Source: Candidatus Woesearchaeota archaeon (lineage in GTDB: Archaea; Nanobdellota; Nanobdellia; Woesearchaeales; JAGLGH01). From it: a DNA stretch of 53,942 nucleotides. The notes under the pieces are model-generated. The model saw nothing but the letters and a program-made list of their open reading frames with translations, had not been told where the DNA came from and made no database searches. Positions 23,677-47,460 of the stretch are shown in pieces (the stretch's first letter is position 1; every line of letters starts with the position of its first letter). The stretch spans positions 1-53,942 of the forward strand of contig DAOVBM010000005.1 of the NCBI GenBank assembly GCA_030670545.1. The letters run 5' to 3'. A program made the position numbers and the translations under genes.

Positions 23677-23708
23677 ATGTTATATCTTAATAGATAATGG
23701 TTTTTTCA

Positions 23709-24605
23709 ATGAAAAGAATTGATATAAAAGTAGGTTTCTCGTGTAATAATAACTGCTTGTTCTGTGCCCAAGGGCATAAAAAGTCATTTGGTGACAGATC
23801 CACTATAGAAATAGAGAGGGATTTGAGTTCTTCAAAAATAAGATGCGGGGGCGTTGTATTTACTGGAGGTGAATTTACAATAAGAAAAGACGCGTTTGAA
23901 CTTGTATCATATGCCAAAGTGCTGGGTTTCTCTGTGATCCAGATACAATCAAACGGCCGCATGTTCAGTAATAAGGCTTTCTGCAAGAAAATCATAAATT
24001 GCGGTGCAAACCAATTTGCACTTGCTCTTCATGGCCATACCCCAGATATACATGAGAATCTTACAAGAGCAAAAGGAAGTTTTAATCAGACCGTGAGAGG
24101 CATAAAAAACCTTAAAGAACTATCCCAAACTGTCCTTATGAATACAGTAGTCAATCTCCAAAATTACAAGCATCTTCCAGAACTTGCGCACCTTTTTGTT
24201 GATCTTGGGGTGGATCAATTTCAGTTTGCATTTATTCATCCAATAGGAACGGGATATAAATACTTTGATGAAATGGTTCCAAGAATTAGTGATGCTGCGC
24301 CATATATACATCAGGGGCTTCAGATAGGCATTGATGCAGGTATAAGTGTAATGGCAGAAGCAATGCCTTTTTGCCTGATGAATGGATACGAAAAATATGT
24401 TTCTGAATTGAGGATTCCAGTTACAGAAGTAAGTGATGTAGATTCTTATGTTTTAGATTATCTGCAGCAGAAAAAGAACGAAGGCAAAATGAAATTTAAA
24501 AAATGCTTTGCATGCAATTTTAATAAAATATGCGAAGGACCCTGGAAAGAATATCCTGAAAGATTTGGTGACTACGAATTTAATCCTATTAAAAAATCAA
24601 AGTGA
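23709..24605 (+). CDS. Radical SAM protein with C-terminal Cys tail, 298 aa (paralogue A)
   Basis: The radical-SAM cluster motif is C12-x3-C16-x2-C19 (SCNNNCLFCAQG) and is followed by FTGGEFTIRKD, the GGE strand that contacts SAM. Near the C-terminus MPFC and CFACNFNKIC (CX2CX5C) supply four cysteines that could hold an auxiliary Fe-S cluster. The protein ends in EFNPI, shared with two paralogues 2-4 kb downstream. I chose the ATG at 23709 because it aligns exactly with the start of paralogue B, although an in-frame ATG at 23697 fits a leaderless transcript. The substrate is unknown; the family suits peptide or small-molecule radical chemistry. It converges with the TPR-like gene, with a 9-base overlap. 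Confidence 0.88.
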   Translation: MKRIDIKVGFSCNNNCLFCAQGHKKSFGDRSTIEIERDLSSSKIRCGGVVFTGGEFTIRKDAFELVSYAKVLGFSVIQIQSNGRMFSNKAFCKKIINCGANQFALALHGHTPDIHENLTRAKGSFNQTVRGIKNLKELSQTVLMNTVVNLQNYKHLPELAHLFVDLGVDQFQFAFIHPIGTGYKYFDEMVPRISDAAPYIHQGLQIGIDAGISVMAEAMPFCLMNGYEKYVSELRIPVTEVSDVDSYVLDYLQQKKNEGKMKFKKCFACNFNKICEGPWKEYPERFGDYEFNPIKKSK

Positions 24606-25044: not shown

Positions 25045-25986
25045 TTAATCAAATTCTAGCAAAAAACCATCAAATGGTCTTTTCTTTTTAATGGTTTGAA
25101 CCAATTTCTTATCATTATAGATAATAATCTCATCATCTTTTACTTTTATTCTGTTGCCCTGACAGAACTTAATTCTATATTTATCATCCCTCGGATGACC
25201 AATGAATTTAAATTTAGAGTAATGGAGATAACCATTTTTGGTTCTTCCCTCAAAAACATAAGAAATTTTTTCTGCAAAATTAATAATAGGCAATTTTAGT
25301 GCTTTTCTGATTTCATGCGCATACTCAGGTTCTTTTTCCATGATTACTTCTTCTGTCTGTTTAGCAATATCTATGGTCTTTTTACAATTAAACGAACACG
25401 GGTGATGATGAATATATGAATAACCTATATGATTCAGTATGTTGTTGCAGTAATAAGATAATGCACCTTTTGTTTTTTTATAACTCTCGTAGGGTGTAGA
25501 CATGCCAAATTTGTTAAAAGAATTAAAGAATTCGATACAACAATTAGGATAACCTAAAACTTCACCAAATCGAAGATGATCAATAAATGGCTTATCTATA
25601 ACTCTCTTCCGAATAATGAGGGGATACCATCCAAATCTATGAGCATTAAAAATAGATTTCCTGTATCTTGATATAAATACATGAACCATACCTTCTTTTC
25701 TGTTTGGATCAAAGGGCAATCCCTTGAATTTTGTGGTTGTCAGAAATCTTGCGCCAATAGAAGTTGTAAGCTCCTTTTTAGTTGGTTCTACAAACATACA
25801 ATCTGGTTGACATAATAAATTATAGTTTTTACATGCGCTTTTTAGTTTATTATAAGCTTGAATAGGAATCCATGTATCAAATAAAGGCTTTATTCCATAT
25901 ACTGTTCCAATTACTAACGGGAATTGGCCAATTCCTAAATCTGCAAGTTCTTTGCATATGCTTTTGACTGGATAATCATATAACAT
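25045..25986 (-). CDS. DUF483-like protein with GYPxCC and HxPCSxxC motifs, 313 aa
   Basis: Two cysteine motifs stand out: GYPNCCIEFF (residues ~145-154) and HHPCSFNCKKTID (~193-205), the combination I associate with the archaeal DUF483 family of unknown function. The conserved Cys/His set would suit metal binding or an iron-sulfur centre. No signal peptide or membrane helix is present, so it is cytoplasmic. It heads a two-gene minus-strand operon set between plus-strand radical-SAM genes, and its start faces that of paralogue B across a 66-base divergent promoter. That placement suggests a shared pathway; the function is not known. Confidence 0.65.
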   Translation of the reverse strand: MLYDYPVKSICKELADLGIGQFPLVIGTVYGIKPLFDTWIPIQAYNKLKSACKNYNLLCQPDCMFVEPTKKELTTSIGARFLTTTKFKGLPFDPNRKEGMVHVFISRYRKSIFNAHRFGWYPLIIRKRVIDKPFIDHLRFGEVLGYPNCCIEFFNSFNKFGMSTPYESYKKTKGALSYYCNNILNHIGYSYIHHHPCSFNCKKTIDIAKQTEEVIMEKEPEYAHEIRKALKLPIINFAEKISYVFEGRTKNGYLHYSKFKFIGHPRDDKYRIKFCQGNRIKVKDDEIIIYNDKKLVQTIKKKRPFDGFLLEFD

Positions 25987-26052: not shown

Positions 26053-26961
26053 ATGAAAAAAGCAGATATAAAAGTCAGTTTTTCATGCAACAATAATTGT
26101 AAATTTTGCATTGTCGCAGATAAAGGAAGACACAAGAAAAAAACAACTCAGGAAATCATGAGAGATATTGATTCTGCAAAAACATCAGGCATCAATGAGA
26201 TAATATTCACTGGTGGAGAACCGACAATAAGGAAGGATATATTTCAAATCATAGAATATGCAAGCAAAACAGGATTTAACAAGGTAGGAATATATACAAA
26301 TGCCAGAATGTTATCATATCCAGAATTTACATCAAAGCTTGTAAAATGTGGGCTGAACTGGTGCCTTGTTTCATTACATGGCCCTAATGACAATATCCAC
26401 GATTCTCTGACACAAGTAAATGGAAGTTTCAGACAGACAACAAGGGGGATAAAAAACATTGTTGAATCTGGCATTGAAGTGATGAATAATATTACTATTA
26501 CAAAAATAAATTATACTTCTCTTTCTAACATCATAAATCTTATTAAATCTCTTGGAATCAAATATACTAATATGACATTTGTTGATATCATGGGAAATGC
26601 TTTTGAGTTCAGGGAGGATATAGTAGTCAATTACAGAGAACTCCAACCATATCTGATTGATGCAATTGAAACTGCTAAAGGCATTGACTGCTTCAAAGCA
26701 ACTACTGAGAACATACCTTTATGCATCCTTGGAAAGTTCTGGCAATCTGCTCGCGAGAATGATTTTGCCAGAGACAAATGGGTATTTAACGAACCGCAGT
26801 CAAATTCTATTGATTTTAACAAGAGCAGAACAGAATCAAAATTCAAAAAGAAATCCTGCTTATCCTGCAGCTTAAATAACAAATGTGAAGGCATAAGAAA
26901 AATATATGCAAAGATATATGGGGATGAGGAGTTTAAGCCAATCATAAAACAGGTAAATTAG
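26053..26961 (+). CDS. Radical SAM protein with C-terminal Cys tail, 302 aa (paralogue B)
   Basis: C12-x3-C16-x2-C19 (SCNNNCKFCIV) binds the radical-SAM cluster; FTGGEPTIRKD is the GGE motif. The C-terminal half shows ENIPLC and SCLSCSLNNKC (CX2CX5C) followed by G(x4)Y(x5)G and EFKPI, the same tail as paralogues A and C. The common order IP(L/F)C then CX2CX5C gives four potential ligands for an extra cluster, similar to a shortened SPASM/twitch domain. It is the first gene of a five-gene plus-strand operon (33 bases to the next) that contains the two large fusion proteins. Confidence 0.88.
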   Translation: MKKADIKVSFSCNNNCKFCIVADKGRHKKKTTQEIMRDIDSAKTSGINEIIFTGGEPTIRKDIFQIIEYASKTGFNKVGIYTNARMLSYPEFTSKLVKCGLNWCLVSLHGPNDNIHDSLTQVNGSFRQTTRGIKNIVESGIEVMNNITITKINYTSLSNIINLIKSLGIKYTNMTFVDIMGNAFEFREDIVVNYRELQPYLIDAIETAKGIDCFKATTENIPLCILGKFWQSARENDFARDKWVFNEPQSNSIDFNKSRTESKFKKKSCLSCSLNNKCEGIRKIYAKIYGDEEFKPIIKQVN

Positions 26962-26994: not shown

Positions 26995-27879
26995 ATGGGT
27001 ATAAATAACAATCAAATAAAAGTGCATCAGGATAAGCATGCAGCCAAAGTTAGGAATTATTACATCTTGAGATCCTGCAACAATAATTGTCTTATGTGTG
27101 TTTATGCAAACAAAAGCAATGAGATGATGCATCTTGAGGATATTGCATCTGATCTAAAATCCCTGGATAAGAATACAAAAACAATATATGTATCTGGTGG
27201 AGAACCAACCTTACATCCAGACTTTTTTGAGATATTAAAAAAGGCAAGAGCTAATTTTAATGGCAATATCCATATCCTGACAAATGGAAGAACATTCTCA
27301 ATCAACACATTCATCAAAAAGCTTGATTTGGATATTGGAAATGCTGTGTTTGGTGTGCCTTTTCACTCATCATATCCAAAAGTCTTTGATGAGATTACAC
27401 AAGTGCCGGGCAGTTTCATGCAGACTGTCAAAGGAATCAACAATCTTACATCTGCTGGGCAGTCAGTTGAATTAAGGATAATCATCAATATGTTGAATTA
27501 TTCTATGCTGCCAGAAATTGCATGGTTTATCAGGAAAAATTTTCCTGCTGTTGACAAGGTCTTATTTATATCCATGGATCTCATAGGGAATGCGGCAATT
27601 AATAAGGATATACTTGCAGTCCGTATTTCTAAAACTACGCCATATCTACATAAAGCAATAGACATTCTTGAGGGGCATTTCCAGATATTGCTTAACCAGA
27701 TTCCGTTATGCCTGCTTGACCCAGATTATCATAAGTTTGCGCATAGAGGCACTTTTGTGGAGAGGGAGCATTCATTTTCCAAGTGGTGCAAGAATTGCAT
27801 ACGGAAAAAGGATTGCGGGGGTACATGGAAAAGCTATATATCCTTTTTCGGGAGTGAAGAGTTTAAACCAATAAAATGA
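26995..27879 (+). CDS. Radical SAM protein with C-terminal Cys tail, 294 aa (paralogue C)
   Basis: The cluster motif is C28-x3-C32-x2-C35 (SCNNNCLMCVY), preceded by a ~20-residue extension that A and B lack. VSGGEPTLHPD is the GGE motif. QIPLC and WCKNCIRKKDC (CX2CX5C) with GSEEFKPI at the very C-terminus complete the family pattern. Identity with B is clear along the length but the proteins are well diverged, so this is an old duplication and each may have its own substrate. Its stop overlaps the ATG of the 918-aa fusion gene (ATGA), which implies coupled translation. Confidence 0.88.
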   Translation: MGINNNQIKVHQDKHAAKVRNYYILRSCNNNCLMCVYANKSNEMMHLEDIASDLKSLDKNTKTIYVSGGEPTLHPDFFEILKKARANFNGNIHILTNGRTFSINTFIKKLDLDIGNAVFGVPFHSSYPKVFDEITQVPGSFMQTVKGINNLTSAGQSVELRIIINMLNYSMLPEIAWFIRKNFPAVDKVLFISMDLIGNAAINKDILAVRISKTTPYLHKAIDILEGHFQILLNQIPLCLLDPDYHKFAHRGTFVEREHSFSKWCKNCIRKKDCGGTWKSYISFFGSEEFKPIK

Positions 27880-30632
27880 ATCTGCCACATGAAATAATAA
27901 TAGAATTAACAAATAACTGCAATTTGGATTGCAGTTTTTGTTTTAATAAACAGGGGACTGATCATATTCACGAAATTTCACAAGAAGATGTTTTTAAGAT
28001 ATTAGGAGATGTTTACAATTCAGGAATAAAGGCAGTAAGATTTACAGGAGGAGAGCCATTCTTAAGAAAAGACTTATGCGAGATACTAAAAAAAGCAAAA
28101 TCTATTGGTTTATATGTAATCCTAAATACTAACGCTTTTTTGATAGATGAAAAAAATAAACATTGTTTTAAATATGTTGATTTAGCTCTTTTTTCTTTGC
28201 ATGATACAGCACGACTTGAAAAAGTAAAAGAAAAGATGAATCTGCTGCAAGATTATAATCTAAAAATAATGCTTTGCACTATCCTGACACAATTGAATAT
28301 AAATAATCTTGAAAATTACTATGATTTCATTTCCAAATTAAATAATAAAAATTTTGTAGAATGGTTCTTATTAAGGCCAATCCCAAATCAGTTTAATAAA
28401 AGGCCAATAACCAAAGAAGACGTTAAAACGGTTCGCGAAAAAATAGTGCAGTATAACAATAAGTATAATTTGGATATTAAGATTGCAAACGCCTTGCCTT
28501 TCTGCGCAATAAATGAAGATTTATCTTCTATCTGCAAAGGAGGGCATTTTGATTCTGGTTACACGCGATTGGTTATAGATTCGAATGGAAACTATAAGGC
28601 AGACTATTTTTCTAATATCTGGGGTAACATCAATGATACTAATATCCTTGATATCTGGAATTCTGATGAAATGAAAGATATTAGGAACTATAATAAAATT
28701 GATAAATTATGTAAGGAGTGTTATCATCTCAAAAAATGCAGGGGTGGCCTGATAGAGGGAGAATATTTGTATGAATTTAAGAATGTTAGTTGCTTGGCAA
28801 GCGTAGTCATCCCTACTTTTAATGATTCTCAAAGATTATCTTTGCTTGTGAAAAGTTTAGAGAATCAGACTATAAATAATTTCGAAGTGATTGTAGTTGA
28901 TGATGGAAGTACTGATGATACTAAAGAAGTTGTGGAAGAACTGAAAAACAAGTCACATCTTTCTATCCAATATTTTTACTTGAATAATACAGATATATTT
29001 GGAGCAGGAATAGCAAGGAATTTTGGAGCAAGAAAGGCAAAAGGAAATGTTTTAATATTTTTAGACCAAGATAATGTAGCGCACCCTAAATTAATTGAAA
29101 ATTACTTAAGGGAACATAAGAAGAAGGATATTATATTAGGATATTATGCGGGTTATGGCAATCAAAAATATTATTATGATATTAATAAACTTAAATCCGC
29201 TGTTAAAAAAAATAAAGTTATCAAAACAAATATCTCTGAGTTTAGAAAGGACATTTTTAACAATCCAAACTTGTACAAAAATCAAGAATGGAAATTTTTT
29301 GTATCTGCAAATTTTTCAATCAAAAGGACATTGTTCCTCAAATTCTTGTTTGATGAGAACATAATTTCATGGGGGGGAGAAGATATTGATTTTGGCTATA
29401 GATTGATTAAAAAAGGATATTCTCTGAATTTCTGTAGAGATTGCTTAACTTATAATAGCTCTGATAAACCTTTCATTAATCAGGGTAAATTTTTCTCTCT
29501 GATGAATGTATTGATTTACCTCTTTGATAAGCATAATAGTGAAGAACTTAAAAAATATTGTTTTGAGAGATTCTATCATACGCCAATAAACTTGAGATCA
29601 GATTCCAAGCTGATTGAAAAAAATAATAAATTAATATTTCGAAAGCCAAATATGAATCCTTTTGACAGAGATGATGTCAACAAAAAAAACAATACAAAAT
29701 CCATAAACACTTTTTGCCCGAAATTGTGGTATGAAGTATATATAGATAAAAATGGCGATGTATATAGCTGCTGCCATAATAAGCCAGCAGTTTTAGGAAA
29801 TATCTACACTAAAAATCTAAAAGAGATTTGCAATAATAATATTATACAAGAACTCCGCAAAAAGTCTTTACAGGGAAGATTAGATTGTTATAAAGATTGC
29901 AGATTGCACCTCGAGAAGGATATCCCTGCAATGGATGGATTTACAATTTCTTACAGCAATCTTAAAAAATTAAAGATATTATTTAGTGAGAAATGCAATA
30001 TCGATTGTATCATGTGTTGGCAGGATAGTAAAAATAATGAACGCATTGATTATAAAAAATTAATAGAAAATGTTGATGTATCCCCTTTTGAAGAGATAGA
30101 GATACAAGGTGGCGAGCCATTATTCATTAAAGAAGCAAAAAAGTATTTTGATTATGTCACTTCGAAAGGGAAAAAAGTATCTTTCCTGACTAATGGATTA
30201 TTAATAAACGAAGTTTGGGCTAAAAAGATTGCCCTTTATTCATCCTGTATCTATTTTTCGTTAAATGCTGCAACAAAGAAAACACATGAATCAATTAACA
30301 GAGGATCAAAATGGGAATCTGTACTTGGGAATATCAAGAAAATCAAGAGGTATATAAATAAGTATAATACTGAAGTTAAGATAATAGGACATATGACAAT
30401 TATAACAGAGAACCTGGATGAGATTCCTTTATTCATCAATAATTTTAAAGAATTTGGATTTGATTCAATCGAATTTGGATACGATAAATCTATGCGTAAT
30501 TACTTGAAAGATTGTTCAAGAAAGAAAATGGAGCTTAAGTCATCTATAAAATCAGCATTAAATCGAGTAGTACATAAATCAAAAATAAACCTGTTTGGCC
30601 TTGAGAGAATAGGCCTTATAACATACACCTAA
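27876..30632 (+). CDS. Fusion: radical SAM/SPASM - GT2 glycosyltransferase - SPASM-like - radical SAM, 918 aa
   Basis: Domain order: radical SAM 1 (residues 1-~230; NNCNLDCSFCFNK, FTGGEPFLRKD); SPASM-like cysteine region to ~305 (ALPFC, ICKGG, LCKECYHLKKCRGG); GT2 glycosyltransferase ~308-540 with SVVIPTFND, VVDDGSTDDT, FLDQDNVAHP (DxD-like) and SWGGEDIDFGYR; a second SPASM-like region ~610-690 (FCPKLWYEVYIDKNG then SCCHN and DCYKDC); and radical SAM 2 ~700-918 (EKCNIDCIMCWQD, IQGGEPLF). All motifs are intact, so it is not a frame accident. It would combine sugar transfer with two radical steps on one chain, perhaps glycosylation of a peptide or the sugar itself being changed. The substrate is unknown. 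Coupled upstream by a 4-base overlap. Confidence 0.9.
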   Translation: MNLPHEIIIELTNNCNLDCSFCFNKQGTDHIHEISQEDVFKILGDVYNSGIKAVRFTGGEPFLRKDLCEILKKAKSIGLYVILNTNAFLIDEKNKHCFKYVDLALFSLHDTARLEKVKEKMNLLQDYNLKIMLCTILTQLNINNLENYYDFISKLNNKNFVEWFLLRPIPNQFNKRPITKEDVKTVREKIVQYNNKYNLDIKIANALPFCAINEDLSSICKGGHFDSGYTRLVIDSNGNYKADYFSNIWGNINDTNILDIWNSDEMKDIRNYNKIDKLCKECYHLKKCRGGLIEGEYLYEFKNVSCLASVVIPTFNDSQRLSLLVKSLENQTINNFEVIVVDDGSTDDTKEVVEELKNKSHLSIQYFYLNNTDIFGAGIARNFGARKAKGNVLIFLDQDNVAHPKLIENYLREHKKKDIILGYYAGYGNQKYYYDINKLKSAVKKNKVIKTNISEFRKDIFNNPNLYKNQEWKFFVSANFSIKRTLFLKFLFDENIISWGGEDIDFGYRLIKKGYSLNFCRDCLTYNSSDKPFINQGKFFSLMNVLIYLFDKHNSEELKKYCFERFYHTPINLRSDSKLIEKNNKLIFRKPNMNPFDRDDVNKKNNTKSINTFCPKLWYEVYIDKNGDVYSCCHNKPAVLGNIYTKNLKEICNNNIIQELRKKSLQGRLDCYKDCRLHLEKDIPAMDGFTISYSNLKKLKILFSEKCNIDCIMCWQDSKNNERIDYKKLIENVDVSPFEEIEIQGGEPLFIKEAKKYFDYVTSKGKKVSFLTNGLLINEVWAKKIALYSSCIYFSLNAATKKTHESINRGSKWESVLGNIKKIKRYINKYNTEVKIIGHMTIITENLDEIPLFINNFKEFGFDSIEFGYDKSMRNYLKDCSRKKMELKSSIKSALNRVVHKSKINLFGLERIGLITYT

Positions 30633-30647
30633 GTTATATAATTCAAA

Positions 30648-32879
30648 ATGAAAATACTAATTCATGCAATCAATGGTGTGGGGTTAGGCCACATTATAAG
30701 AACGTTAGAAGTCTCAAAAGCATTGATCAAGTTAAGAAAAGATGTAGAGATTATCTTTGTTACTAACTCACAATTTCCACAGATTATTAGCGATAACGGA
30801 TTCAAGTACTATCAATTGAAACTAAACACAAAAGATGTTCTTGAGAGCAAAGTTTATTATCATGACTATGCCTCATATAATTCCTTGAGATTGATTAAAA
30901 TTATTAAAAGTGAATATCCCGATCTTATTTTATTTGATTGTGAACTGCATGAATCTGTAATTGATTTTTGCGTGAAAAAACATATAAAAACTTCATTTAT
31001 CCTACGCAATAAAAACCACAAACATTTTGATGCAATCATAAAACAAGGCGTTATGAAAAAAATTGATATGATTCTTATTCCTCACAATAAATTAGATGTT
31101 CCAAAAAGTACTATTGCCCATCTTAAAGATTATGATACTGTCTCTTTTGTAGGCCCAATTATTAAAACACGAAGGATAACACTGGATAGGAACAAGAAAA
31201 GTTATGAGAAAAAAAACGAGAGGAATAGAAAAAATCCCCTTAATATATTAATTACATTTTCTGCTGGCGCAGGTATTGAAGACAATAGTGAATTATTTAG
31301 TAAAGTATCCAACTTTCTAGCACAGCTTAAAAATAATGGCAGAAACATTAAAGACAGGCAGGTTAAATTGGATATTATAACAGGACCATATTTCAAACAG
31401 AATTACTGCAATCTCAATGGATTTGATTATAAATCATTTGAGCCTGACATGTTGGGTAAGATGAAAGAGGCAGACCTTATTATCTCTTCTGCAGGATATA
31501 ATATCATCAATGAGATAATATATGCCCAGACTCCTGCTATATTGATACCAGTTAGAAGGGAGGAGGATAATCAGTTTGCTCGCGCAAAAGATATGGAGAA
31601 AAAAGGATGCGCAAAAGTTGTAAAAAACAGCATCTTTCAAGAAATAGAAGATATCTTGCTTAAGAATAAGCTTAGAGAAATGGAGAATAAATTTCCAGAT
31701 ATCCTACCCGGCAATGACTCTGCAGCTAAAAAAATCAGTGAGTTACTTGGCAATAAGGATAAACTTGCTGTCCTATGCACCAATTTCCTGCCATTCTCTG
31801 ATAGATTCATATCTGATGAACTTGACTCATTGCAAGCTTATGAACCTAATATATTCTGCATAAATAAAGAATATGATAAAGAACCCAGATTTAAAATATT
31901 TCACAAGGAAAAATTTATCTCTTTGTGCACGCCTGATTTTCCTTTTATAAGAAATAAGCATATGAATTTGCACAAGGCATTAATTAATTGGTGCACAGAG
32001 ATAATAAGGTCCAATAATATAAAACTATTGCATGCGCAGTATCTTTCAGATGCATTATTTTTCTTGAATGTCAAGAGAATTACCAATCTTCCACTTATTG
32101 TTTCAGTGAGAGGATATGACCTGTATACCTTGAGAAATATCGATTACTCCTTTTTATTCAGTAGTACAGATTTGTTTCTTGTAAGGTCTGAGAAAATGAA
32201 AAAGGATCTGATTAGTAAAGGCTGCGATCAGACGAAGATAATAATTCATCATTCTGGCATAAGATTTGACAATAGATTTACTGATAAAAACCTTAGCCAA
32301 TGTAAAGACGGCAATAAGATTAATATTCTAATGGTCGGGAGATTTGTAGAAAAAAAAGGAACATTATTAGGCATAAAGATATTTAATAAAGTTTGCCAAA
32401 AATACAATAATATTCAATTAAATATAATTGGTGACGGCATCCTTAAGGAAAAAATACTATTAGAAGCCGAAGGTAGCCCTTTCTCTGAAAAGATTAAGAT
32501 TCATGGGGAATTGCCAAACAACAATGTAATTAAGATAATGAAGCAAAGCCATATATTGCTTCAACCTTCTATAACTGCAAAAAATGGAGATATGGAAGGT
32601 ATTCCAAATTCTGTTATGGAAGCAATGGCCTTAGGGGTAATTGTTGTGGCCAGCAATCATTCTGGAATTCCAGAGATTGTGAAAGAGAATAAAACAGGCC
32701 TGATTTTCAAGGAAGGTAACTTAGAAGGAGCAGTCAGTAAATTGAGTTTTGCTATAGAGAATATAAATAAACTGCAAAGCATGAAAAGGGATGCATGGAA
32801 CTTTGTAGAACAAAAGTTTAATATTATAAAGCAAACATCCTTACTTGAACGAATATATGATTCAATATTGGATAAATAA
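30648..32879 (+). CDS. Double GT-B glycosyltransferase: MurG/GT28-like domain fused to GT4-like domain, 743 aa
   Basis: The N-terminal half (1-~365) starts MKILIHAINGVGLGHIIRT, the glycine-rich start of MurG/UDP-glycosyltransferase-like GT-B enzymes, and has the donor-site region SSAGYNIINEIIYAQTPAI near residue 284. The C-terminal half (about 370-743) is a GT4-type glycosyltransferase: LLHAQY and SVRGYDLYTL early, then ILMVGRFVEKKG near residue 563 and the donor-binding GIPNSVMEAMALGVIVVAS segment with its EX7E-like region. Two GT-B enzymes in one chain suggest consecutive sugar additions. It lies 15 bases after the 918-aa gene and 10 before the DegT fusion. No membrane helix. Confidence 0.88.
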   Translation: MKILIHAINGVGLGHIIRTLEVSKALIKLRKDVEIIFVTNSQFPQIISDNGFKYYQLKLNTKDVLESKVYYHDYASYNSLRLIKIIKSEYPDLILFDCELHESVIDFCVKKHIKTSFILRNKNHKHFDAIIKQGVMKKIDMILIPHNKLDVPKSTIAHLKDYDTVSFVGPIIKTRRITLDRNKKSYEKKNERNRKNPLNILITFSAGAGIEDNSELFSKVSNFLAQLKNNGRNIKDRQVKLDIITGPYFKQNYCNLNGFDYKSFEPDMLGKMKEADLIISSAGYNIINEIIYAQTPAILIPVRREEDNQFARAKDMEKKGCAKVVKNSIFQEIEDILLKNKLREMENKFPDILPGNDSAAKKISELLGNKDKLAVLCTNFLPFSDRFISDELDSLQAYEPNIFCINKEYDKEPRFKIFHKEKFISLCTPDFPFIRNKHMNLHKALINWCTEIIRSNNIKLLHAQYLSDALFFLNVKRITNLPLIVSVRGYDLYTLRNIDYSFLFSSTDLFLVRSEKMKKDLISKGCDQTKIIIHHSGIRFDNRFTDKNLSQCKDGNKINILMVGRFVEKKGTLLGIKIFNKVCQKYNNIQLNIIGDGILKEKILLEAEGSPFSEKIKIHGELPNNNVIKIMKQSHILLQPSITAKNGDMEGIPNSVMEAMALGVIVVASNHSGIPEIVKENKTGLIFKEGNLEGAVSKLSFAIENINKLQSMKRDAWNFVEQKFNIIKQTSLLERIYDSILDK

Positions 32880-32889
32880 TATTTTAAAA

Positions 32890-35082
32890 ATGCAAAGCAA
32901 TGAACCATACAGCTTAAGATGGCCACCCATCAGCAAGAGAGATGTTTATGTGGTCATGAAGACACTGCTTAATAAAGATATTTCTATAAGTGATGGTTCA
33001 GGCATAATAGCGGAATTTGAGTCAGATTTTGCAAAATGGCTTGGAATTAAATATTGCCTGGCTCAAAATAGCGGAACATCAACGCTGCATTCAGCATTCT
33101 TTGCTATAGGAATAAAGGAGGGAGATGAGGTTCTTGTCCCTTCTCTCACATGGCATAGTTCAGTCTCACCACTTCTGCATCTTAGAGCAGTTCCTGTATT
33201 TTGTGAGATTGACCCCGCTACATTGACAATTGATCCAGATGATATAAAGAAACGTATAACCCCAAAAACAAAGGCAATATTGGTAGTTCATCTTTTTGGT
33301 ATGCCAGCAGAGATGGATAAAATTATGACAATTGCAAGGAAACACAATCTCCTTGTTGTTGAAGATTGTTCCCATGCTTATGGCTCATTATACAAAGGAA
33401 AATGTGTAGGGACATTTGGGGATATAAGCTGTTTCAGCATGCAGGCAAGCAAGATGCTTCCTGCAGGAGAAGGTGGAATATTCTGCACGAATAAGAAAGA
33501 ATATTATGAAAAAGCGCTTCTACTAGGCCATTTTGGAAGGCTGAATGAACTCTCGAAGAATGATTATAAGAGATTTGCCAATACCGGGCTTGGATTTAAA
33601 TACAGGCCTCATCCTCTTGCAATTGCCCTTGCAAAATCACAGCTGCGCACAATCAATAGGAGAATTAGAAATACGAATAAAAATATAAACCAATTTGAAA
33701 GTCTGCTTAAGAATATTCCAGGTATAAGCATAATCAACAAGCCGGACTATTGCAACTTCAAGAGCAATTATGGTTTTAGGTTCATCTATGATGAGAATGA
33801 AACAGGCATTTCTAAAACAGATTTTATTAAGTCATTAAGGGAAGCAGGAATACCTGCCCATGATGAATGTTACAATCTCCTCCATAAAGAGCCTATATTT
33901 CAAAATAGCCAGTTCTTCCATCTTCCACATAGGGATTATTCCCTGCCGATTACAGAAAAAGCGCACTCAAAGATTATTTGCATCAATTTACCATATAATC
34001 AGCATCCAAACCTTATTAATGGATATTATGAGACAATGCGAAATGTCATATCCACGAAAACAGCTTATAGGCAGTTAAGTGTTGGAAAGGGGGTATTCTC
34101 CACACCCGACCAAATCACAATAGAGTTAACAATGGGATGTAATTTGCATTGCCCTATGTGCTATCAGAGAGATTTTCGGCGTATGCATGACAACAGCATG
34201 GATGAAATGAGTGTAGAATCAATTGAGAAATTATTGGTTGATGTAATGCCCAAGAGAGTTACCTTAAGTGGGGGGGAACCTACAACAAAAAATGGTTTTT
34301 TCAGAATATTGGACACTCTCAAGAAGCTGGGCATAAGATTCACAATCCTAACAAATGGCTCACTTTTTGATGAGCAATTTATTAATAAGATTAAGGAATA
34401 CCAAGGTTTAGGAGATATTGTATTTTCGCTGGATTACTATGATGAAGAAAGACATGATTCGTGGAGGGGTAAAAAAGGCCTTTTTAAGCGTATCATAAAT
34501 GCTGTTGACAAATTAGAAAATCACTTCACTACATGCATAGCAGCTGTAGTATTAGAAGACAACCTGGATGATCTGATAAAGCTGATTGAAGATTATTCTT
34601 CAAGGAATGTTCATATTTCTCTCATTCCTTATGAGCAGTATTGGGAGAAAGAAATAACTGTGACCAGAAAAAGGTTATCAACTATATTTCAGAAGGATGA
34701 GGATTCATTCTCATTAATGGTGGCTGCGCAGGATATGGACTGTGAAAAGATGAAAAAAAATTTGCAGATTCTCAAAGGCAAACAGGATAAGAGAAACAAT
34801 GCCGCTTTTCATCCATCTGACCTTCCAAATGCGATAAATGATTTTTATAGAATGGAAAATGTGAAAGGCATATGTAAAAATCTCAGGGATTCAAGATTAA
34901 GAGTTGACAGCAAGGGAAAGGTAATTGTTTGTAGGATTATCCGGGAAACTCTTGGAGATTTGGGTAGCCAATCAGCAAAGGAGATATGGGATTCAGAAAA
35001 GTATAAGAGATTGCGGAAGGATTATATCAAAAATGGACCATACCCCATCTGCAAGAGATGCCCTCATTTTATAAGGGAGTAA
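32890..35082 (+). CDS. Fusion: DegT/DnrJ/EryC1-type aminotransferase - radical SAM/SPASM, 730 aa
   Basis: Residues 1-~395 are a PLP-dependent sugar aminotransferase of the DegT/DnrJ/EryC1/ArnB class: AQNSGTSTLHSAFFA binds the phosphate, VEDCSHAYGS holds the PLP-pairing Asp and His, and SMQASKMLPAGEGG carries the internal-aldimine Lys (~residue 187). Residues ~407-730 are a radical-SAM/SPASM protein: TMGCNLHCPMCYQ, LSGGEPTTKNG, and a C-terminal GICKN, VICRIIRE-like and ICKRCPH cysteine set. Start ATG 32890 is chosen over an earlier in-frame TTG that lies inside the upstream gene. The family makes amino sugars for surface glycans and antibiotics; the radical domain could deoxygenate, dehydrate or isomerise the same sugar. 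Confidence 0.9.
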   Translation: MQSNEPYSLRWPPISKRDVYVVMKTLLNKDISISDGSGIIAEFESDFAKWLGIKYCLAQNSGTSTLHSAFFAIGIKEGDEVLVPSLTWHSSVSPLLHLRAVPVFCEIDPATLTIDPDDIKKRITPKTKAILVVHLFGMPAEMDKIMTIARKHNLLVVEDCSHAYGSLYKGKCVGTFGDISCFSMQASKMLPAGEGGIFCTNKKEYYEKALLLGHFGRLNELSKNDYKRFANTGLGFKYRPHPLAIALAKSQLRTINRRIRNTNKNINQFESLLKNIPGISIINKPDYCNFKSNYGFRFIYDENETGISKTDFIKSLREAGIPAHDECYNLLHKEPIFQNSQFFHLPHRDYSLPITEKAHSKIICINLPYNQHPNLINGYYETMRNVISTKTAYRQLSVGKGVFSTPDQITIELTMGCNLHCPMCYQRDFRRMHDNSMDEMSVESIEKLLVDVMPKRVTLSGGEPTTKNGFFRILDTLKKLGIRFTILTNGSLFDEQFINKIKEYQGLGDIVFSLDYYDEERHDSWRGKKGLFKRIINAVDKLENHFTTCIAAVVLEDNLDDLIKLIEDYSSRNVHISLIPYEQYWEKEITVTRKRLSTIFQKDEDSFSLMVAAQDMDCEKMKKNLQILKGKQDKRNNAAFHPSDLPNAINDFYRMENVKGICKNLRDSRLRVDSKGKVIVCRIIRETLGDLGSQSAKEIWDSEKYKRLRKDYIKNGPYPICKRCPHFIRE

Positions 35083-37285: not shown

Positions 37286-39392
37286 CCATTAAGTTGCCGT
37301 TTTCAAATATTTTTAGCATAAATGTTTCATTTAAGTTAGTAATTTCGACTTTCTCCCCAATAGTCTTGGTGTAATCTCTTTGTGATATATTAGAGACAAA
37401 AAAAGATGTGCTACCCTGTTTTTTATTTATCATTAGGTCAAAGGTATAGCAATGCTCTGGCGACGAGATATCCTTAAATAATTGCCCCTTTTCTGTAATA
37501 TTTGACAGGTCGATTATATTTATATCTCCAGGTTCATATCTCTGATCTACTATGTGTGGAATAATTAGATATAATTCATTTTTATTTTTGAAAAAATAAT
37601 AAGGGGAGACACTTCCGCTTTTTATGCATTTTGTGAATTTATCCAAAAAAGGAGGGAATGCCTGTTGTTTTGCCAAATCTTCAGAGAATTCATTTAAATC
37701 TATTTTATTAAACGCTAATGCAGGTAATAAATTAATCCCTGTCAATTTCTCTTTTTGGATAATGATATACCCTTCATTCTCATCAAATCTAGCTGAATCA
37801 ATAAGTTTTATTCTTGTATCTTTTGTAACGTCTAAGCCTTTAGTTATATTTACACCTAAAACAACTAGTACGATTAGCATTAAGTAAGCTATAACTATTT
37901 TTTTATCTTTAAGATGCTTTACTAAATATTTCAAGCCATTCATGCATAGAATAAGCAAAAAAGGCAGGATCAACAATAATAATGTTGTTTTTGGTGGCCT
38001 CCAGTTTTCATTTATTAATAAAAAAGCCAAAAACACTAAAGATGTTACTAAAAAAAAGTATTTTGTCTTTTTACCCTTTAACTCATTTAACCCAAAAAAG
38101 ATTGCCGCAAAAATAAGCAAACCAAAATTTTTTAACAAAATTAGTGGTAAATAAATAAATATAGGGTAGGGAAATCCTGGAGTTCTGATGATATGATCAT
38201 AAAAAGGAAAATTAAACAGGGATCTTATGTAAAAAGTCATACCAAAAAATTGATGCTTAAATAAAGAACAATAAAGAAACCCAGGGAATTGGAAAATATT
38301 ATTATATAATATGTAGTTGATTATCAGTACTGGAATAATTACTATCACTGAACTTGCTGCAAATAGAGTTATCCTCTTTATATTGCTATAATAAAAGTAA
38401 ATTATCAAGCCTGGCACAAATATCAAACTAATAGGCCTAATGCTTCCAAGAAAACCATATAACATACCAGCTAAAATCATATCTTTTGGCGAGATATAAC
38501 TTTTTGTTAAAAAGTATATAATCACACTAACAACCAGAAAAGCCAAATAATTAGTATTAATGCTATTTGATTCCTGAGCTATTATGTTAAAATTTAACAA
38601 AAAAATACAGAAGATTGATAACCATATCGACCTTGTAAAACCTTTTACTAAATAAAATAGAACTGCTGACGAACACATTAAGATGAAAGAAAATAGGATT
38701 CTCAGCCCTGCAAAATTAAATAAACCCATAAAATAAGATGTGTGAATCCCTATAAAAAAGGGTTCATCATTCATAAACATCTTTTCATTCGAGTTATAAT
38801 TCAGGATTATATTGTTTTTGCTTTGTTCAAATCGATAATAGTTAAGCTCTTCAACTCCAGTATATGAAATGTTTAGGTCTTTATTGACAAGACATGTAAA
38901 ATTAGTTGTTAATTCTATTTTGGATTGTTCTACCTCAGGGAATGCTTCTCTGAATGCTGTATTTTCTATCCCAAATATGTAATCAGTTTTCAAATTTTGA
39001 TAAGCCCAGTTATCAGGGCAATTATACCTTTCTTTATATGGAAAGGAAAATGTTAGAAAGTTGAAAATAAGGATAACCAATAGAATGCCCAAGATAACAT
39101 AATCTCTCTTCTTAAGCCAAATCCTGCTTATTCTTTGTTTTTTATAAGCTATTATACAGGATATGCTTAAATTAAAGACAGTAGATATTGCCACAATACC
39201 ATATAAAGTAAAAAAGTTATTTGTTATTAGGACGAAATAATATGAAATAACTGGCAGAAAGATCAGTACCAACGTGAAGTTGATGATAAATGTCTTTAAA
39301 TTTTTTTTGTTTGATATCTGTGTTAATAAAAATGAAGGTAATATAAATACCCAAACAACCAGTAATATTACCTTTAATAATTCAACAATCAT
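37266..39392 (-). CDS. GT-C-like multi-pass membrane protein, 708 aa
   Basis: This long protein has at least ten membrane helices, with a large loop after helix four (about residues 115-215) and a C-terminal soluble domain of ~190 residues. The NDEPFF motif near residue 208 resembles the acidic active-site loop of GT-C enzymes, and RTPGFPYPIFIYLPL is shared with the 628-aa protein at 45555-47441 (RTPHFPFPNYITIPL), so the two are paralogues. They probably transfer lipid-linked sugars on the outer membrane face. The start overlaps the stop of the radical-SAM gene upstream by four bases (ATGA). Confidence 0.7.
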   Translation of the reverse strand: MIVELLKVILLVVWVFILPSFLLTQISNKKNLKTFIINFTLVLIFLPVISYYFVLITNNFFTLYGIVAISTVFNLSISCIIAYKKQRISRIWLKKRDYVILGILLVILIFNFLTFSFPYKERYNCPDNWAYQNLKTDYIFGIENTAFREAFPEVEQSKIELTTNFTCLVNKDLNISYTGVEELNYYRFEQSKNNIILNYNSNEKMFMNDEPFFIGIHTSYFMGLFNFAGLRILFSFILMCSSAVLFYLVKGFTRSIWLSIFCIFLLNFNIIAQESNSINTNYLAFLVVSVIIYFLTKSYISPKDMILAGMLYGFLGSIRPISLIFVPGLIIYFYYSNIKRITLFAASSVIVIIPVLIINYILYNNIFQFPGFLYCSLFKHQFFGMTFYIRSLFNFPFYDHIIRTPGFPYPIFIYLPLILLKNFGLLIFAAIFFGLNELKGKKTKYFFLVTSLVFLAFLLINENWRPPKTTLLLLILPFLLILCMNGLKYLVKHLKDKKIVIAYLMLIVLVVLGVNITKGLDVTKDTRIKLIDSARFDENEGYIIIQKEKLTGINLLPALAFNKIDLNEFSEDLAKQQAFPPFLDKFTKCIKSGSVSPYYFFKNKNELYLIIPHIVDQRYEPGDINIIDLSNITEKGQLFKDISSPEHCYTFDLMINKKQGSTSFFVSNISQRDYTKTIGEKVEITNLNETFMLKIFENGNLMDEIYVS

Positions 39393-40426
39393 TTTTTAGC
39401 AAATTTTTGAAATATATTATAATTTTCAAAGAGATTTAACAAAGATGACCAGGAAAAATGCAGCAATAAGTTTTGTTCAATATGGCAGTTATAGTTACAC
39501 ATGTTGCATTTTGGGACTCTTGTTTCTAAAATTGCTTTCTCCCATCCCTCTTTTAATCCATTTTTGAAAGTTGTACCCTGGTTGTGATAATCTAAATATT
39601 TATAACAGGGCATTACATCCCCATTAGGTGCTATTATAAACGCCAATTTTCCCATTAGGCATTTATTAATTGGAAAGTCCCGAAGACCATCATTTTTAAT
39701 AAATTTAAGATATTCCATAGAATTTAAGACATTTTTCTCATTCTTTTTGAGCTTAATTATCTTTACAAATATATTCATTAATTCCTCATCACTTGCCTGT
39801 AAGTGTTTGATATCCCTTTTTTTAACTCTTGCAAGATTATTATCATATACTGGTGTGAAATTTACTTTTACACCATAGGTTCTTGCAATGTCCATAACAT
39901 AATCCAATTGATCAATATTATATTTTGTAATTATCATATTTATTGCAACATTAATCTTATTTATTCTTGCAAGTTCTAAGGCCTTAATCGTTGCATCAAA
40001 TGACCCTCTCCCCCGAAGTTTTTCATGGATATCCTTGCTTCCATTTAAGCATACAAAAAGAAGATCTACATCTTTTATCTCATCTATTTTTTCTTCTAAT
40101 CCAAAAGCATTTGTAGTGAGAATTATAAGCTGCTTATTTTGTTTAGCATGCTGGATTATTTTTCCAAGGTCATGCCTCAGCAACGGCTCACCGCCTGTAA
40201 AATGAATCCTATGCATACCCATTTTACTTAACTTACTTATCATTTCTAATATTTCATTTGTAGACATTTCATATGTTCTATCTGCCCTATTAATCTTACA
40301 ATACATGCAGTTCGAGTTGCATCTATTAGTAGTGACAAGATTTACCATTAAGGGAATATTCTTACCCATAACTTTAGATTTTATAACATTTATGCCAGAG
40401 ATAATGTTCTTTTGCCAGATATTCAT
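39389..40426 (-). CDS. Radical SAM/SPASM protein, 345 aa
   Basis: The cluster motif is C36-x3-C40-x2-C43 (NRCNSNCMYCKI), with FTGGEPLLRHD as GGE motif. A SPASM-type region at the C-terminus has CLMGKLAFIIAPNGDVMPCYKY, then KCNMCNYNCHIEQN. The start ATG 40426, eight bases after GAGG, is preferred to an upstream start that lies inside the neighbour; the stop of the upstream gene is two bases before it. It is closely related to the 342-aa radical-SAM gene at 42076 over the whole length, including the unusual CHIE(Q/D)N tail. SPASM domains usually handle peptides or carbohydrates; here the operon context favours glycan work. Confidence 0.88.
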   Translation of the reverse strand: MNIWQKNIISGINVIKSKVMGKNIPLMVNLVTTNRCNSNCMYCKINRADRTYEMSTNEILEMISKLSKMGMHRIHFTGGEPLLRHDLGKIIQHAKQNKQLIILTTNAFGLEEKIDEIKDVDLLFVCLNGSKDIHEKLRGRGSFDATIKALELARINKINVAINMIITKYNIDQLDYVMDIARTYGVKVNFTPVYDNNLARVKKRDIKHLQASDEELMNIFVKIIKLKKNEKNVLNSMEYLKFIKNDGLRDFPINKCLMGKLAFIIAPNGDVMPCYKYLDYHNQGTTFKNGLKEGWEKAILETRVPKCNMCNYNCHIEQNLLLHFSWSSLLNLFENYNIFQKFAKK

Positions 40427-40428
40427 GT

Positions 40429-41388
40429 TTAAACCTCTGCAGCCAAGCATTTAATTTTACGGTTAACTTTTGAGTAACATGATTTTCTCCTCATTATTTT
40501 TAATATTGAACTTAAGCTTTCATCAGTTACGTTTCCATACTTCTCTTTAATAAAAGAACAAGGCATCACATCCCCATACAGTGTAACTGCAATCTTTTCC
40601 GAACCTGCTGCGCATCCCTTGAATAAGTAGTTGTTTTCCTCACACAGCCTTGCTAAAGGATGCTTCATAACTTCTTCAAGTTTTTTCATGTCTGCCTTAT
40701 CAAGCCTATTTTCACTGCATCCCTTAAATCTACCAGTAAGAATAGGCAGACAGAATATTACACTTGCATCAGATTTTTCTGCAAATTCAAGTATTTTGTA
40801 TAATTCGCCGCTATGCAATTTCTCTTTTGTTATCAATGCGCTGATTATGACTTCAATCTTATTTTCTCGAAATAATTTTATAGCATTCATCGCTTTTTTA
40901 AAACATCCTGCATAATTCCTAAATACGTCATGTTCTTTTTCTGTCGTAAAATCAAGGCTTACGCAAGCCACGTCAAGTCCCTTATCTTTAAGCTGTCTTG
41001 CATATTTTTCGTCAAGCACTATTCCATTTGTATCAATGCTTGTGATGAAATCCCCTTTTGTGAAATCAAGCAAAGTAAGTAATTTTTCTTTTGCAAGGAG
41101 TGTTTCCCCTCCAGTGAAGAGTATGTGCACTGCGCCTTCTTTCCTAGCCTGTATAATGATGTCCCTGATTTCTTTAACTTTCAGCTCCTTTTTTCCATCG
41201 TCAACCAGATCAGCAGCACTGCAATGCATGCATCGGCATTGGCATTGGTATGTTAATGCTATCTCAATTGTCCTTAAAACTGTTTTTCCTGAAAATAGCT
41301 TAATGTAATTCCAGATAAGCCGAGCGATTATCTTAGGTTTTTTTAGTGTTATTTTTAAGTTTGCAAATATCCTTCTAGTATTCTTCAT
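40429..41388 (-). CDS. Radical SAM protein, 319 aa
   Basis: The cluster cysteines are C49/C53/C56 in YQCQCRCMHCSAA, with an extra Cys between them, and FTGGETLLAKE is the GGE motif. The C-terminal part carries KGCAAGSEK, a SPASM-like VMPCSFIKEKYG and a Cys near KCLAAE. Start ATG 41388 has GAGG eight bases upstream and overlaps the stop of the methyltransferase gene by 14 bases; the longer frame would need a start inside that gene. Differs from its two neighbours in lacking the CHIE tail, so it probably acts on another substrate in the same pathway. Confidence 0.87.
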   Translation of the reverse strand: MKNTRRIFANLKITLKKPKIIARLIWNYIKLFSGKTVLRTIEIALTYQCQCRCMHCSAADLVDDGKKELKVKEIRDIIIQARKEGAVHILFTGGETLLAKEKLLTLLDFTKGDFITSIDTNGIVLDEKYARQLKDKGLDVACVSLDFTTEKEHDVFRNYAGCFKKAMNAIKLFRENKIEVIISALITKEKLHSGELYKILEFAEKSDASVIFCLPILTGRFKGCSENRLDKADMKKLEEVMKHPLARLCEENNYLFKGCAAGSEKIAVTLYGDVMPCSFIKEKYGNVTDESLSSILKIMRRKSCYSKVNRKIKCLAAEV

Positions 41389-42079
41389 CTCTGATATCCT
41401 CTTGTTTATTTTTTTTTGATGCCACAATCAACATGTTTAATCCTATCGGTAGTTTGATAACAGACTCTATCTTGGCAAGAATCCCGCATGCCAAATCGAA
41501 TCTTTTGAGATCAACTTCTCTATGCCTTTGTGAGTTAAGTATATGATTTTGAAATATCCACCCAAAAATACCAATAAAGTTAATGTATTTAAAATAATTT
41601 ATCTCAAATCCCGATTCTTTTATCTTGCTCATAATCTCATCCTTGGAGTATCTGCGGCAATGCTTATTTGCCTTATCAATCTTTCCGTAAATGCATTTTA
41701 TTGCAGGCACTATAATAACGATTTTTCCCTTGTCTTCAAGAAGTTTGTTCATATTTTTCATTGCCAATAAATCATCCCTAATATGTTCAAGAACATTTAT
41801 GCAGACTACTGTATTAAATTTCTTATCTATAAGCATAGATATATTACCAGTTATGTCAATCTTTTCTATTTTGTTGCCGCTGAAATTTATCTGATATTTC
41901 TCTTTGTCTATGGGTGTTATACTACATAGTTTATCTTTTTCAATTAGGCTGGTGATTGCCCCCATCCCGGCTCCTACTTCAAGTATATTGCTGCCAATAT
42001 GCGGCTTAATCTCACCATATAACCACCTTACATAATTTTGCATTTTTGAAACATTCTTAAGATTTATTTTGTCGTTCAT
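41375..42079 (-). CDS. Class I SAM-dependent methyltransferase, 234 aa
   Basis: ILEVGAGMGAIT (residues ~32-43) is the glycine-rich SAM-binding motif I; TPIDKEKYQI supplies the acidic residue of motif II; and VCINVLEHIRDD is the methyltransferase motif IV/‘LEH’ signature of UbiE/COQ5-type enzymes. The protein is cytoplasmic and of normal family length. It could O- or N-methylate a sugar in the glycan made here. The start overlaps the stop of the upstream radical-SAM gene by four bases and its stop overlaps the next start, so it is part of one coupled operon. Confidence 0.88.
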   Translation of the reverse strand: MNDKINLKNVSKMQNYVRWLYGEIKPHIGSNILEVGAGMGAITSLIEKDKLCSITPIDKEKYQINFSGNKIEKIDITGNISMLIDKKFNTVVCINVLEHIRDDLLAMKNMNKLLEDKGKIVIIVPAIKCIYGKIDKANKHCRRYSKDEIMSKIKESGFEINYFKYINFIGIFGWIFQNHILNSQRHREVDLKRFDLACGILAKIESVIKLPIGLNMLIVASKKNKQEDIRDEEY

Positions 42080-43104
42080 TTTTTCTTTAAATAATCAGAT
42101 GTATTGTTCTTAAATATCTTGTTCAATCTTAAAAGATTATATATGGATGAAATATTGAGTGAATAAAGAAAATTGTCCTCAATATGACAGCCGTAGTAGC
42201 ATATCTTACAAGAGCTTATCCTGACATTCGCAATAGCTTTTTTCCACCCAACCTTATTACCATTCATACAATTTCCATTGTTTATAAATTTATAGCATTG
42301 GTAAACATTGCCTGTTGGATCAATTGTGACTGACAAACTACCTAGATAGCACCTTTTGAATATTACTGCACCATTTTTGGAAAAAGATCTTAAAGATGCG
42401 TAAGAATTAATAATAGGCTTGCCTTGCTTTTTCTTGTCTATCAATTGGGTAAAAATCCTTTTAATCTCTTCTTTTTTTGGTATAATTTTGTCAAGGCTTT
42501 CGTATTCAACTTTAGCAAGTTCATTCTGAAAAACTGGCTGAAAATTGATAAAGAATCCCTTATCTTGAGCTGTCTCAATCATGAAATCGATATATGCCTT
42601 ATTCTCGTTAGTAATGACAAATGTTGCTATCTTTCCTGCTTTTATACTTCCTGAATCAAGCGCATCCATAGTCTTCTTATAGTTGCCTTTGCCCCTTATC
42701 TTATCATGCACCTCTTCAGGACCATTAAGGCATGTAATCAATAAATCAAGATGTTGAAGTTCAGTTAGTTTCTTATCAAACAATTCGCAGTTAGTGCTAA
42801 TAGTAGTGAGGATCCCCTTACTTTGGGCAAATTTCAACAGCTTTCCTATATCATCCCTTAATAAGGGCTCTCCCCCAATAAATGTAATCTGTTCACATCC
42901 CTGCTTGCTGAGAGATTCAATCATGCTCAAAGCTGATGCTGTATCCATTTCTTTCTTGTGTGGGAATTCTGAAATCTTACAATATGAGCACTTATTTTGG
43001 CATCTATAGGTACAGACGTAGTTTACTTTTAGAGGTAGTCTTCGCTTCAGTACTCTTGAGACCAAAACTTTAATCCCAGATATTAAATGTTTTTTTATTA
43101 TCAT
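42076..43104 (-). CDS. Radical SAM/SPASM protein, 342 aa
   Basis: First gene of the six-gene minus operon. Cluster cysteines C35/C39/C42 lie in YRCQNKCSYCKI, with FIGGEPLLRDD as GGE motif. The C-terminus has RCYLGSLSVTIDPTGNVYQC and then SCKICYYGCHIEDN, a SPASM-like set nearly the same as in the 345-aa gene at 39389. The two are clear paralogues within one operon, set apart by a methyltransferase and a third radical-SAM gene. ATG 43104 lies about 20 bases from a TATA-like GGTTTTAAATC, consistent with a leaderless message. Confidence 0.88.
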   Translation of the reverse strand: MIIKKHLISGIKVLVSRVLKRRLPLKVNYVCTYRCQNKCSYCKISEFPHKKEMDTASALSMIESLSKQGCEQITFIGGEPLLRDDIGKLLKFAQSKGILTTISTNCELFDKKLTELQHLDLLITCLNGPEEVHDKIRGKGNYKKTMDALDSGSIKAGKIATFVITNENKAYIDFMIETAQDKGFFINFQPVFQNELAKVEYESLDKIIPKKEEIKRIFTQLIDKKKQGKPIINSYASLRSFSKNGAVIFKRCYLGSLSVTIDPTGNVYQCYKFINNGNCMNGNKVGWKKAIANVRISSCKICYYGCHIEDNFLYSLNISSIYNLLRLNKIFKNNTSDYLKKK

Positions 43105-43114
43105 TTGAAAAGTA

Positions 43115-43130
43115 GCTGATTTAAAACCCC
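43115..43130 (-). promoter_or_regulatory. TATA promoter of the radical-SAM/methyltransferase/GT-C operon
   Basis: The minus strand reads GGGGGTTTTAAATCAG. TATA-to-ATG spacing suits a leaderless transcript from 43104. It faces the divergent promoter of the B12-type radical-SAM gene. Confidence 0.4.
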
Positions 43131-43153
43131 CAATCTTAAGAGATGGTGCAAAT

Positions 43154-43163
43154 CTATTTAAAG
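43154..43163 (+). promoter_or_regulatory. TATA promoter of B12-type radical-SAM gene
   Basis: CTATTTAAAG preceded by GCAAAT. Start expected near 43185, exactly at the ATG codons 43185/43188, which argues against the longer reading frame that begins at 43143. Confidence 0.5.
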
Positions 43164-43184
43164 TTTATTGTATTTAAGATAATT

Positions 43185-44606: not shown

Positions 44607-44617
44607 GTGATTAATTT

Positions 44618-44633
44618 GGAAATGTTTAAAAAC
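44618..44633 (+). promoter_or_regulatory. BRE/TATA promoter of PP-loop gene
   Basis: GGAAATGTTTAAAAAC gives a BRE-like GGAAA and TATA GTTTAAAA. Predicted start about 44652, at the ATG 44654 (leaderless). Confidence 0.55.
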
Positions 44634-44653
44634 TCTGCAAAGAAATATAAAAG

Positions 44654-45352: not shown

Positions 45353-45522
45353 AAAATAAAAAAACAAGAGGGGTGTGGTTGAAGTATATTTTGTTTATAT
45401 TGCTGCACCTATCCTTCCTGAGTATAGTTTACATCAAATCCCTATTCAATAAGAAATACGAAAACATATTATATTTCTATATGACAAACTTCAAGCGTTG
45501 CCTAAGAAAACTTAATAAATAA
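45349..45522 (+). CDS. Small membrane protein, 57 aa, coupled to PP-loop gene
   Basis: The ATG at 45349 overlaps the stop of the PP-loop gene (ATGA) and the frame runs to TAA 45520-45522. The protein has a basic start (MKNKKTRGVWLKY), one hydrophobic stretch (ILFILLHLSFLSIVYI), and a basic tail (YMTNFKRCLRKLNK). It is positively charged throughout, with one Cys. Short length, but the exact overlap with the upstream stop argues that it is real. It could be a membrane tether for the PP-loop enzyme or a short peptide substrate; neither is shown. Confidence 0.55.
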   Translation: MKNKKTRGVWLKYILFILLHLSFLSIVYIKSLFNKKYENILYFYMTNFKRCLRKLNK

Positions 45523-45554
45523 AGAATTTTGAAAAACCTTAGGTTTTTCTAAAA

Positions 45555-47441: not shown

Positions 47442-47460
47442 AGCAAATTGTATTTTTGCA

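Follow-up and report, generated by a model that had tools for sequence, protein, structure and literature searches.

The His-Xaa-Ser (HXS) system is curated in NCBIfam as a set of protein models (TIGR03976-TIGR03979, HxsA3 NF038309, HxsA4 NF038313, HxsC4 NF038332 and HxsD_rel NF038315), and no HXS product or function is described in the papers that we searched. The named HXS parts include no glycosyltransferase, whereas the archaeal protein analysed here (W918) carries a radical SAM module (rSAM1) fused to a GT2 glycosyltransferase and to a second, twitch-type radical SAM module (rSAM2). rSAM1 resembles the SPASM-type peptide maturases SuiB, PqqE and SkfB, and it aligns with SuiB across the core and the auxiliary domain, both in sequence and in a model; unlike these three enzymes, it keeps four auxiliary cysteines only and is joined to GT2. 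The GT2 module shares the GT-A domain, DDGSTD, a DXD-like motif and GGED with GT2 polymerases and transferases (chondroitin synthase K4CP, TarP, RmlT), its closest solved relative being chondroitin synthase (2z86/2z87). To our knowledge, enzymes of these types are not fused to radical SAM domains. W918 may also be likened to the SunS-type peptide S-glycosyltransferases, GT2-type enzymes that act on a ribosomal peptide and have no radical SAM domain in the chain.

For rSAM2, the nearest curated type is NF033640, the “twitch domain-containing radical SAM protein”, in which the twitch likewise lies ahead of the core; that type stands alone, whereas rSAM2 is fused behind GT2 and scores under the cut-off. 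Likeness was also found to viperin and BlsE and, for the twitch part, to BtrN, the matches being weak and the rSAM2 model poor. The substrates of these three enzymes are nucleotides, sugars or aminocyclitols. Every part of W918 is of a known kind, and curated models already exist both for the HXS system and for the twitch type of radical SAM protein. What appears novel is the combination in a single chain and the tie between HXS and a glycosyltransferase. Neither turned up in Pfam, in NCBIfam or in the literature searched, where no paper was found on radical SAM-glycosyltransferase fusions in DPANN or on HXS glycosylation.

Module architecture of W918

W918 is encoded in a 53,942-nucleotide stretch of DNA (the window, meaning the whole stretch analysed) from a Candidatus Woesearchaeota genome, a 1.48-Mb draft in 88 contigs that is 93% complete. 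Its archaeal origin is evident from an ABCE1/RLI-like gene and from a peptidase whose C-terminal domain is of the archaeal A24 type, and the lineage is probably DPANN. The gene and its modules are as follows.

27876..30632, + strand: W918, a 918-aa rSAM1-GT2-rSAM2 protein (open frame without stop; Pfam domains)
27876..28748, + strand: rSAM1 and auxiliary-cluster region, residues 1-291, with CNLDCSFC, GGEP, C210 and CX2CX5C (Pfam, invariant cysteines, HXS-associated clade)
28788..29675, + strand: GT2 glycosyltransferase and C-terminal extension, residues 305-600, with DDGSTD, DQDN and GGED (Pfam)
29706..30629, + strand: rSAM2, consisting of N-terminal twitch, radical SAM core and tail (Pfam SPASM and Radical_SAM; NF033640; stand-alone relatives)

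The first-pass annotation had read this gene as a single chain of radical SAM, GT2 and second radical SAM domains, and the reading holds, as all 918 codons are open and both CX3CX2C clusters and the GT2 motifs are intact. Radical_SAM (PF04055) matches two stretches (119 bits, cut-off 29.5), and both halves belong to the radical SAM superfamily by this score, the CX3CX2C cluster and the GGE motif (CNLDCSFC at residue 15 and the GGE motif at 58 in rSAM1; CNIDCIMC at 707 and GGEPLF at 745 in rSAM2, which also has FCPKLW at 613). The central domain (residues 309-486; PF00535, 103.9 bits, cut-off 23.3) is assigned to the GT2 family by its score together with DQDN (397) and GGED (within GGEDIDFG, 500), and has DDGSTD at 342. 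The G+C content along the gene (0.28-0.33) is even across both module joins. The initial view was that no such architecture had been described, and no single Pfam or NCBIfam model covers the whole chain. An AlphaFold2 model of W918 has a pTM of 0.45, with the rSAM2 part poorly modelled, and a common cavity is not interpretable from it.

Two SPASM-like cysteine regions had also been proposed. Pfam does place SPASM on two stretches, the stronger at residues 614-675, but the first region is not a canonical SPASM, whose seven cysteines (two auxiliary clusters) are not all found in the first half of W918. Across 11 aligned relatives, rows of rSAM2-only relatives that had aligned onto rSAM1 having been left out, the only invariant cysteines of rSAM1 outside the SAM cluster are C210, C279, C282 and C288, and in the GT2-joined clade Ala/Thr and Asp take the place of the GX4C cysteine. 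Since only these four are invariant, rSAM1 would have enough cysteines for at most one fully Cys-ligated auxiliary [4Fe-4S] cluster, compared with two in canonical SPASM domains.

In the second half the SPASM-like part does lie ahead of the radical SAM core, as first noted (Pfam SPASM at 614-675, CNIDCIMC at 707); Pfam and NCBIfam place the twitch at about 611-690 and the core at about 691-868. The claim that this reversed order is new had to be dropped, because the NF033640 type and stand-alone relatives already share it. The NF033640 match spans residues 611-867 (E = 1e-32) and ends at position 305 of 398 in the model, and its score of 113.7 bits falls short of the cut-off, which is 170; rSAM2 thus agrees with the type in the order of its parts and not in score. 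The stand-alone relatives with the same order are a twitch radical SAM protein in a bacterial locus (L053) and one in G164 (L084). The former was the only useful one among three loci returned by an exact-pattern scan of genome contigs, a kind of scan that diverged copies escape. The latter gene (L084, 2357-5192) overlaps a GT2 gene on either side and is an unfused counterpart of GT2-rSAM2. Phage records gave no match to rSAM2.

A modular rSAM1-GT2 core in the order

Relatives were sought in 353 genomes of the same order, and the rSAM1-GT2 core was found in four others (39-63% identical to W918), which rules out an assembly chimera for this part of the chain. The core stands alone in G260 (611 aa, 56% identity). 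That of G136 (47-50%) has an in-frame TGA interrupting GT2 and a DUF2334 deacetylase-like domain after it, and that of G157 (39%) belongs to a chain of at least 2000 residues (rSAM1-GT2-GT2-DUF2334-B12-rSAM) running to the contig end. The fourth, in G175, is 63% identical over the retained part, its GT2 stopping after about 10 residues. The TGA of G136 (L075, 6534-8999) falls in the middle of GT2 in an otherwise intact rSAM1-GT2-DUF2334 frame, and could reflect a pseudogene, a sequencing error or recoding.

The slot held by rSAM2 in W918 is thus taken by polysaccharide-deacetylase-like DUF2334 in both G136 and G157, and the GT2-rSAM2 join was found in this assembly only. The GT28-GT4 gene that follows W918 also comes after the core in G260 (48.5% identity along its full length) and in G136 (39.6%). 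Because this same gene lies behind the core in both genomes with differing contents between, gene order defines a module slot after GT2 and ahead of GT28-GT4, which is empty or holds a deacetylase or a twitch radical SAM domain. Among those genomes of a 371-genome sample of the phylum that fall outside the order, none gave a match above 100 bits. With rSAM1-GT2 as query, 652 plasmid records match parts of it and none reaches 80% query coverage, and no single-chain rSAM1-GT2 is present among the best 80 loci of viral contigs.

Other module orders occur as well, namely HxsC-like rSAM-GT2-degenerate rSAM (G004, G134), GT28-rSAM-rSAM-GT2 (G172) and GT2-rSAM-SPASM (G163). The chains of G004 (L043, 4882-7248; 789 aa) and G134 (L079, 6217-8604; 796 aa) are 59% identical to each other, and their third part has a radical SAM fold that lacks the cysteines of the CX3CX2C motif. 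Other long frames are one of 1379 aa in G049 (L038, 2462-6598), with three radical SAM domains, the last of them rSAM1-like, plus B12-binding and methyltransferase domains, and the GT28-GT4 gene of G260 (L074, 11263-15870), which is lengthened by radical SAM and SPASM to 1536 aa and whose product has no Pfam match in its final ~440 residues.

His-Xaa-Ser genes in the genome and in its relatives

The genome of W918 holds HxsB, HxsA-like and HxsD-related genes, an HxsC-like gene overlaps W918 itself, and the clade of rSAM1 lies within HXS loci of relatives. The neighbours of W918 in the window are the following.

23697..24605, + strand: HxsC/HxsC4-like radical SAM gene (NF038332, 153 bits; BLAST homologues of 56-58% in HXS loci of G050, G172 and G175)
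25045..25986, - strand: DUF483 protein, between two HxsC-like genes (Pfam PF04467, 30.3 bits, cut-off 25)
26053..26961, + strand: HxsC/HxsC4-like radical SAM gene (NF038332, 150 bits, cut-off 500; TIGR03977, 104 bits)
26995..27879, + strand: HxsC-like radical SAM gene (TIGR03977, 201 bits, cut-off 267.9), its stop overlapping the start of W918 (ATGA)
30648..32879, + strand: GT28-GT4 glycosyltransferase fusion (Pfam), conserved in G260 and G136, where it likewise follows rSAM1-GT2
32845..35082, + strand: DegT-type sugar aminotransferase fused to radical SAM/SPASM (Pfam)

The three best HxsC matches of the genome all fall within the window, and the top one is the gene that overlaps the start of W918; at 200.6 bits it lies below the curated cut-off of 267.9, which no protein reaches in any of the 18 genomes tested. 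A fusion of DUF483 to radical SAM is present in the HXS locus of G072 (L147, 4880-6715; 24.2 bits, just under the cut-off). Farther along, a further cluster (39389-50472) contains three radical SAM genes, a methyltransferase, a B12-binding radical SAM gene and a carbamoyltransferase, and it also holds a radical SAM gene at 47071.

The window itself yielded no HxsA-like gene. The HxsA/HxsB core is on contig C41 and W918 on contig C82 of the draft; in the relatives G157 and G260, HXS genes and the rSAM1-GT2 core are linked. C41 encodes a prepilin-type peptidase, HxsB (TIGR03978, 428.5 bits, cut-off 370), HxsD-like and HxsD-related proteins (TIGR03976, 42.3 bits, cut-off 50; NF038315, 54.5 bits, cut-off 41) and an HxsA3-like precursor that ends in HSSHGSHSSY and scores 51.4 bits, under the cut-off of 65. 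The precursor protein of G001, from the same genus, passes the HxsA4 model (59.2 bits, cut-off 55).

Across the order, 59 of 353 genomes encode HxsB (E <= 1e-60), 49 of them with a score over the curated cut-off; among the 12 genomes in which rSAM1 has a match (E <= 2.3e-28), 11 do. The co-occurrence has a Fisher p of 1.3e-8, or 7e-8 without the genome of W918 itself, values that are uncorrected for kinship. In a tree, 14 rSAM1 sequences form one clade (support 100/99), within which the five GT2-joined ones form a sub-clade (100/99), and the unfused members mostly adjoin HxsA or HxsB of archaeal HXS loci. Direct adjacency was seen in seven genomes (G004, G088, G134, G175, G172, G083, G049), with HxsA followed immediately by rSAM1 in the first four of these and within a longer chain in G172. 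An HxsC4-like domain is fused to rSAM1 in G083 and G349. The G157 contig begins inside an HxsA-like ORF and continues through an HxsC-like gene to the rSAM1-GT2 chain; HxsB was not detected in this genome, the contig being cut at HxsA. In G260, HxsB lies about 15 kb from rSAM1-GT2. Taken by position and phylogeny, the association of rSAM1 with HXS in relatives is well supported.

Most of the HXS loci examined contain a block of the C41 type (prepilin-type peptidase, HxsB, HxsD types, HxsA), many have HxsA tails of the HGSHGS type, and in most of them rSAM1 is neither joined to a GT2 nor next to one. Archaeal HxsA-like precursors (for example L099, 10920-11216; L136, 2935-3231; L076, 6896-7186) have in common a G[KQ]ISK[QE]S-type stretch followed by a hydrophobic segment, which resembles a pilin-type signal, and their C-termini are mostly S-[Y/W], often H-x-S-[Y/W]. 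In G050, the HXS prepilin-type peptidase and a PMT_2 mannosyltransferase share one 890-aa frame (L135, 11198-13867), which is a second link of HXS to protein glycosylation.

Proposed role and competing readings

We propose, with a probability of about one in two, that W918 serves an archaeal HXS peptide system as a multifunctional tailoring enzyme. HxsA-type precursors would be cleaved by the prepilin-type peptidase of the locus and modified by HxsB/HxsC; rSAM1 would modify the peptide further by radical chemistry, GT2 would attach a sugar to the peptide or to a growing glycan, and rSAM2 would alter that sugar. The neighbouring GT28-GT4, DegT-rSAM and other genes may make and extend the modified glycan, and the fusion would hold substrate and intermediates on one scaffold. 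We infer the catalytic step of each module, and favour this division of labour because of the likenesses of the modules and the deacetylase found in the same slot elsewhere. What weighs most against the proposal is that the HXS core of this genome and the window lie on different contigs. Other points against it are the scores of the HxsA-like, HxsC-like and HxsD-like proteins of this genome below their curated cut-offs, the failure to detect HxsB in G157, the absence of a GT2 joined to or beside rSAM1 in most HXS loci examined, and the weak structural likeness of rSAM2. The first reading of the sequence had raised the idea of one bound substrate that undergoes both sugar transfer and radical modification; this is plausible and now has a concrete candidate in the HXS precursor HxsA.

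The main rival is a purely surface-glycan reading, given that rank because HXS loci were found around relatives of rSAM1. W918 would then be an enzyme of surface polysaccharide or glycoprotein glycans, all three of its modules would act on sugars linked to lipids or nucleotides, and rSAM1 would owe its connection with HXS loci to ancestry only. The company of W918 in the window (GT28-GT4, DegT-rSAM, the carbamoyltransferase, a flippase-like protein), the deacetylase in the third slot elsewhere, the stand-alone twitch genes between GT2 genes (L084) or in a bacterial locus (L053) and the separation of the HXS core from the window on another contig would all suit such an enzyme. Yet the nearest relatives of rSAM1 are located in HXS loci, the G157 fusion is one gene away from an HxsA-like gene and three HxsC-like genes lie upstream of W918. 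We regard a role confined to surface glycans as possible but less probable than the HXS role.

The remaining two readings concern the chain itself. Many kinds of fusion are common in these genomes, and W918 could have arisen by accidental fusion of independent neighbouring enzymes whose parts are functionally uncoupled; however, members of different families retain the rSAM1-GT2 order at 39-56% identity, and G172, G134 and G004 have rSAM, GT2 and GT28 modules in other arrangements. This retention and recurrence suggest functional coupling, and make an accident improbable. As for the GT2-rSAM2 join, an assembly error, with the real protein ending after GT2 as in G260, would fit a draft in 88 contigs and the fact that no second genome shows exactly rSAM1-GT2-rSAM2 with the twitch radical SAM module intact. 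Against this, the frame is open throughout and even in composition, the join falls where the core naturally ends, and in G136 a different module occupies this position ahead of the same GT28-GT4 gene; we consider such an error highly unlikely.

Returning to W918 as an HXS tailoring enzyme, we tentatively suggest a wider possibility, that archaea of this order make HXS peptides glycosylated by single-chain radical SAM-glycosyltransferases, with a third module (radical SAM, deacetylase or B12 radical SAM) editing the fresh sugar. Modified glycopeptides would then be built module by module, partly in the manner of an assembly line. HXS has curated names and no described product in the papers searched, and the fusions point to glycosylation in the pathway of these archaea. 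Radical chemistry and sugar transfer in one chain would be a new enzyme architecture, and a compact enzyme and a candidate substrate peptide in one genome make the question of the HXS product testable.
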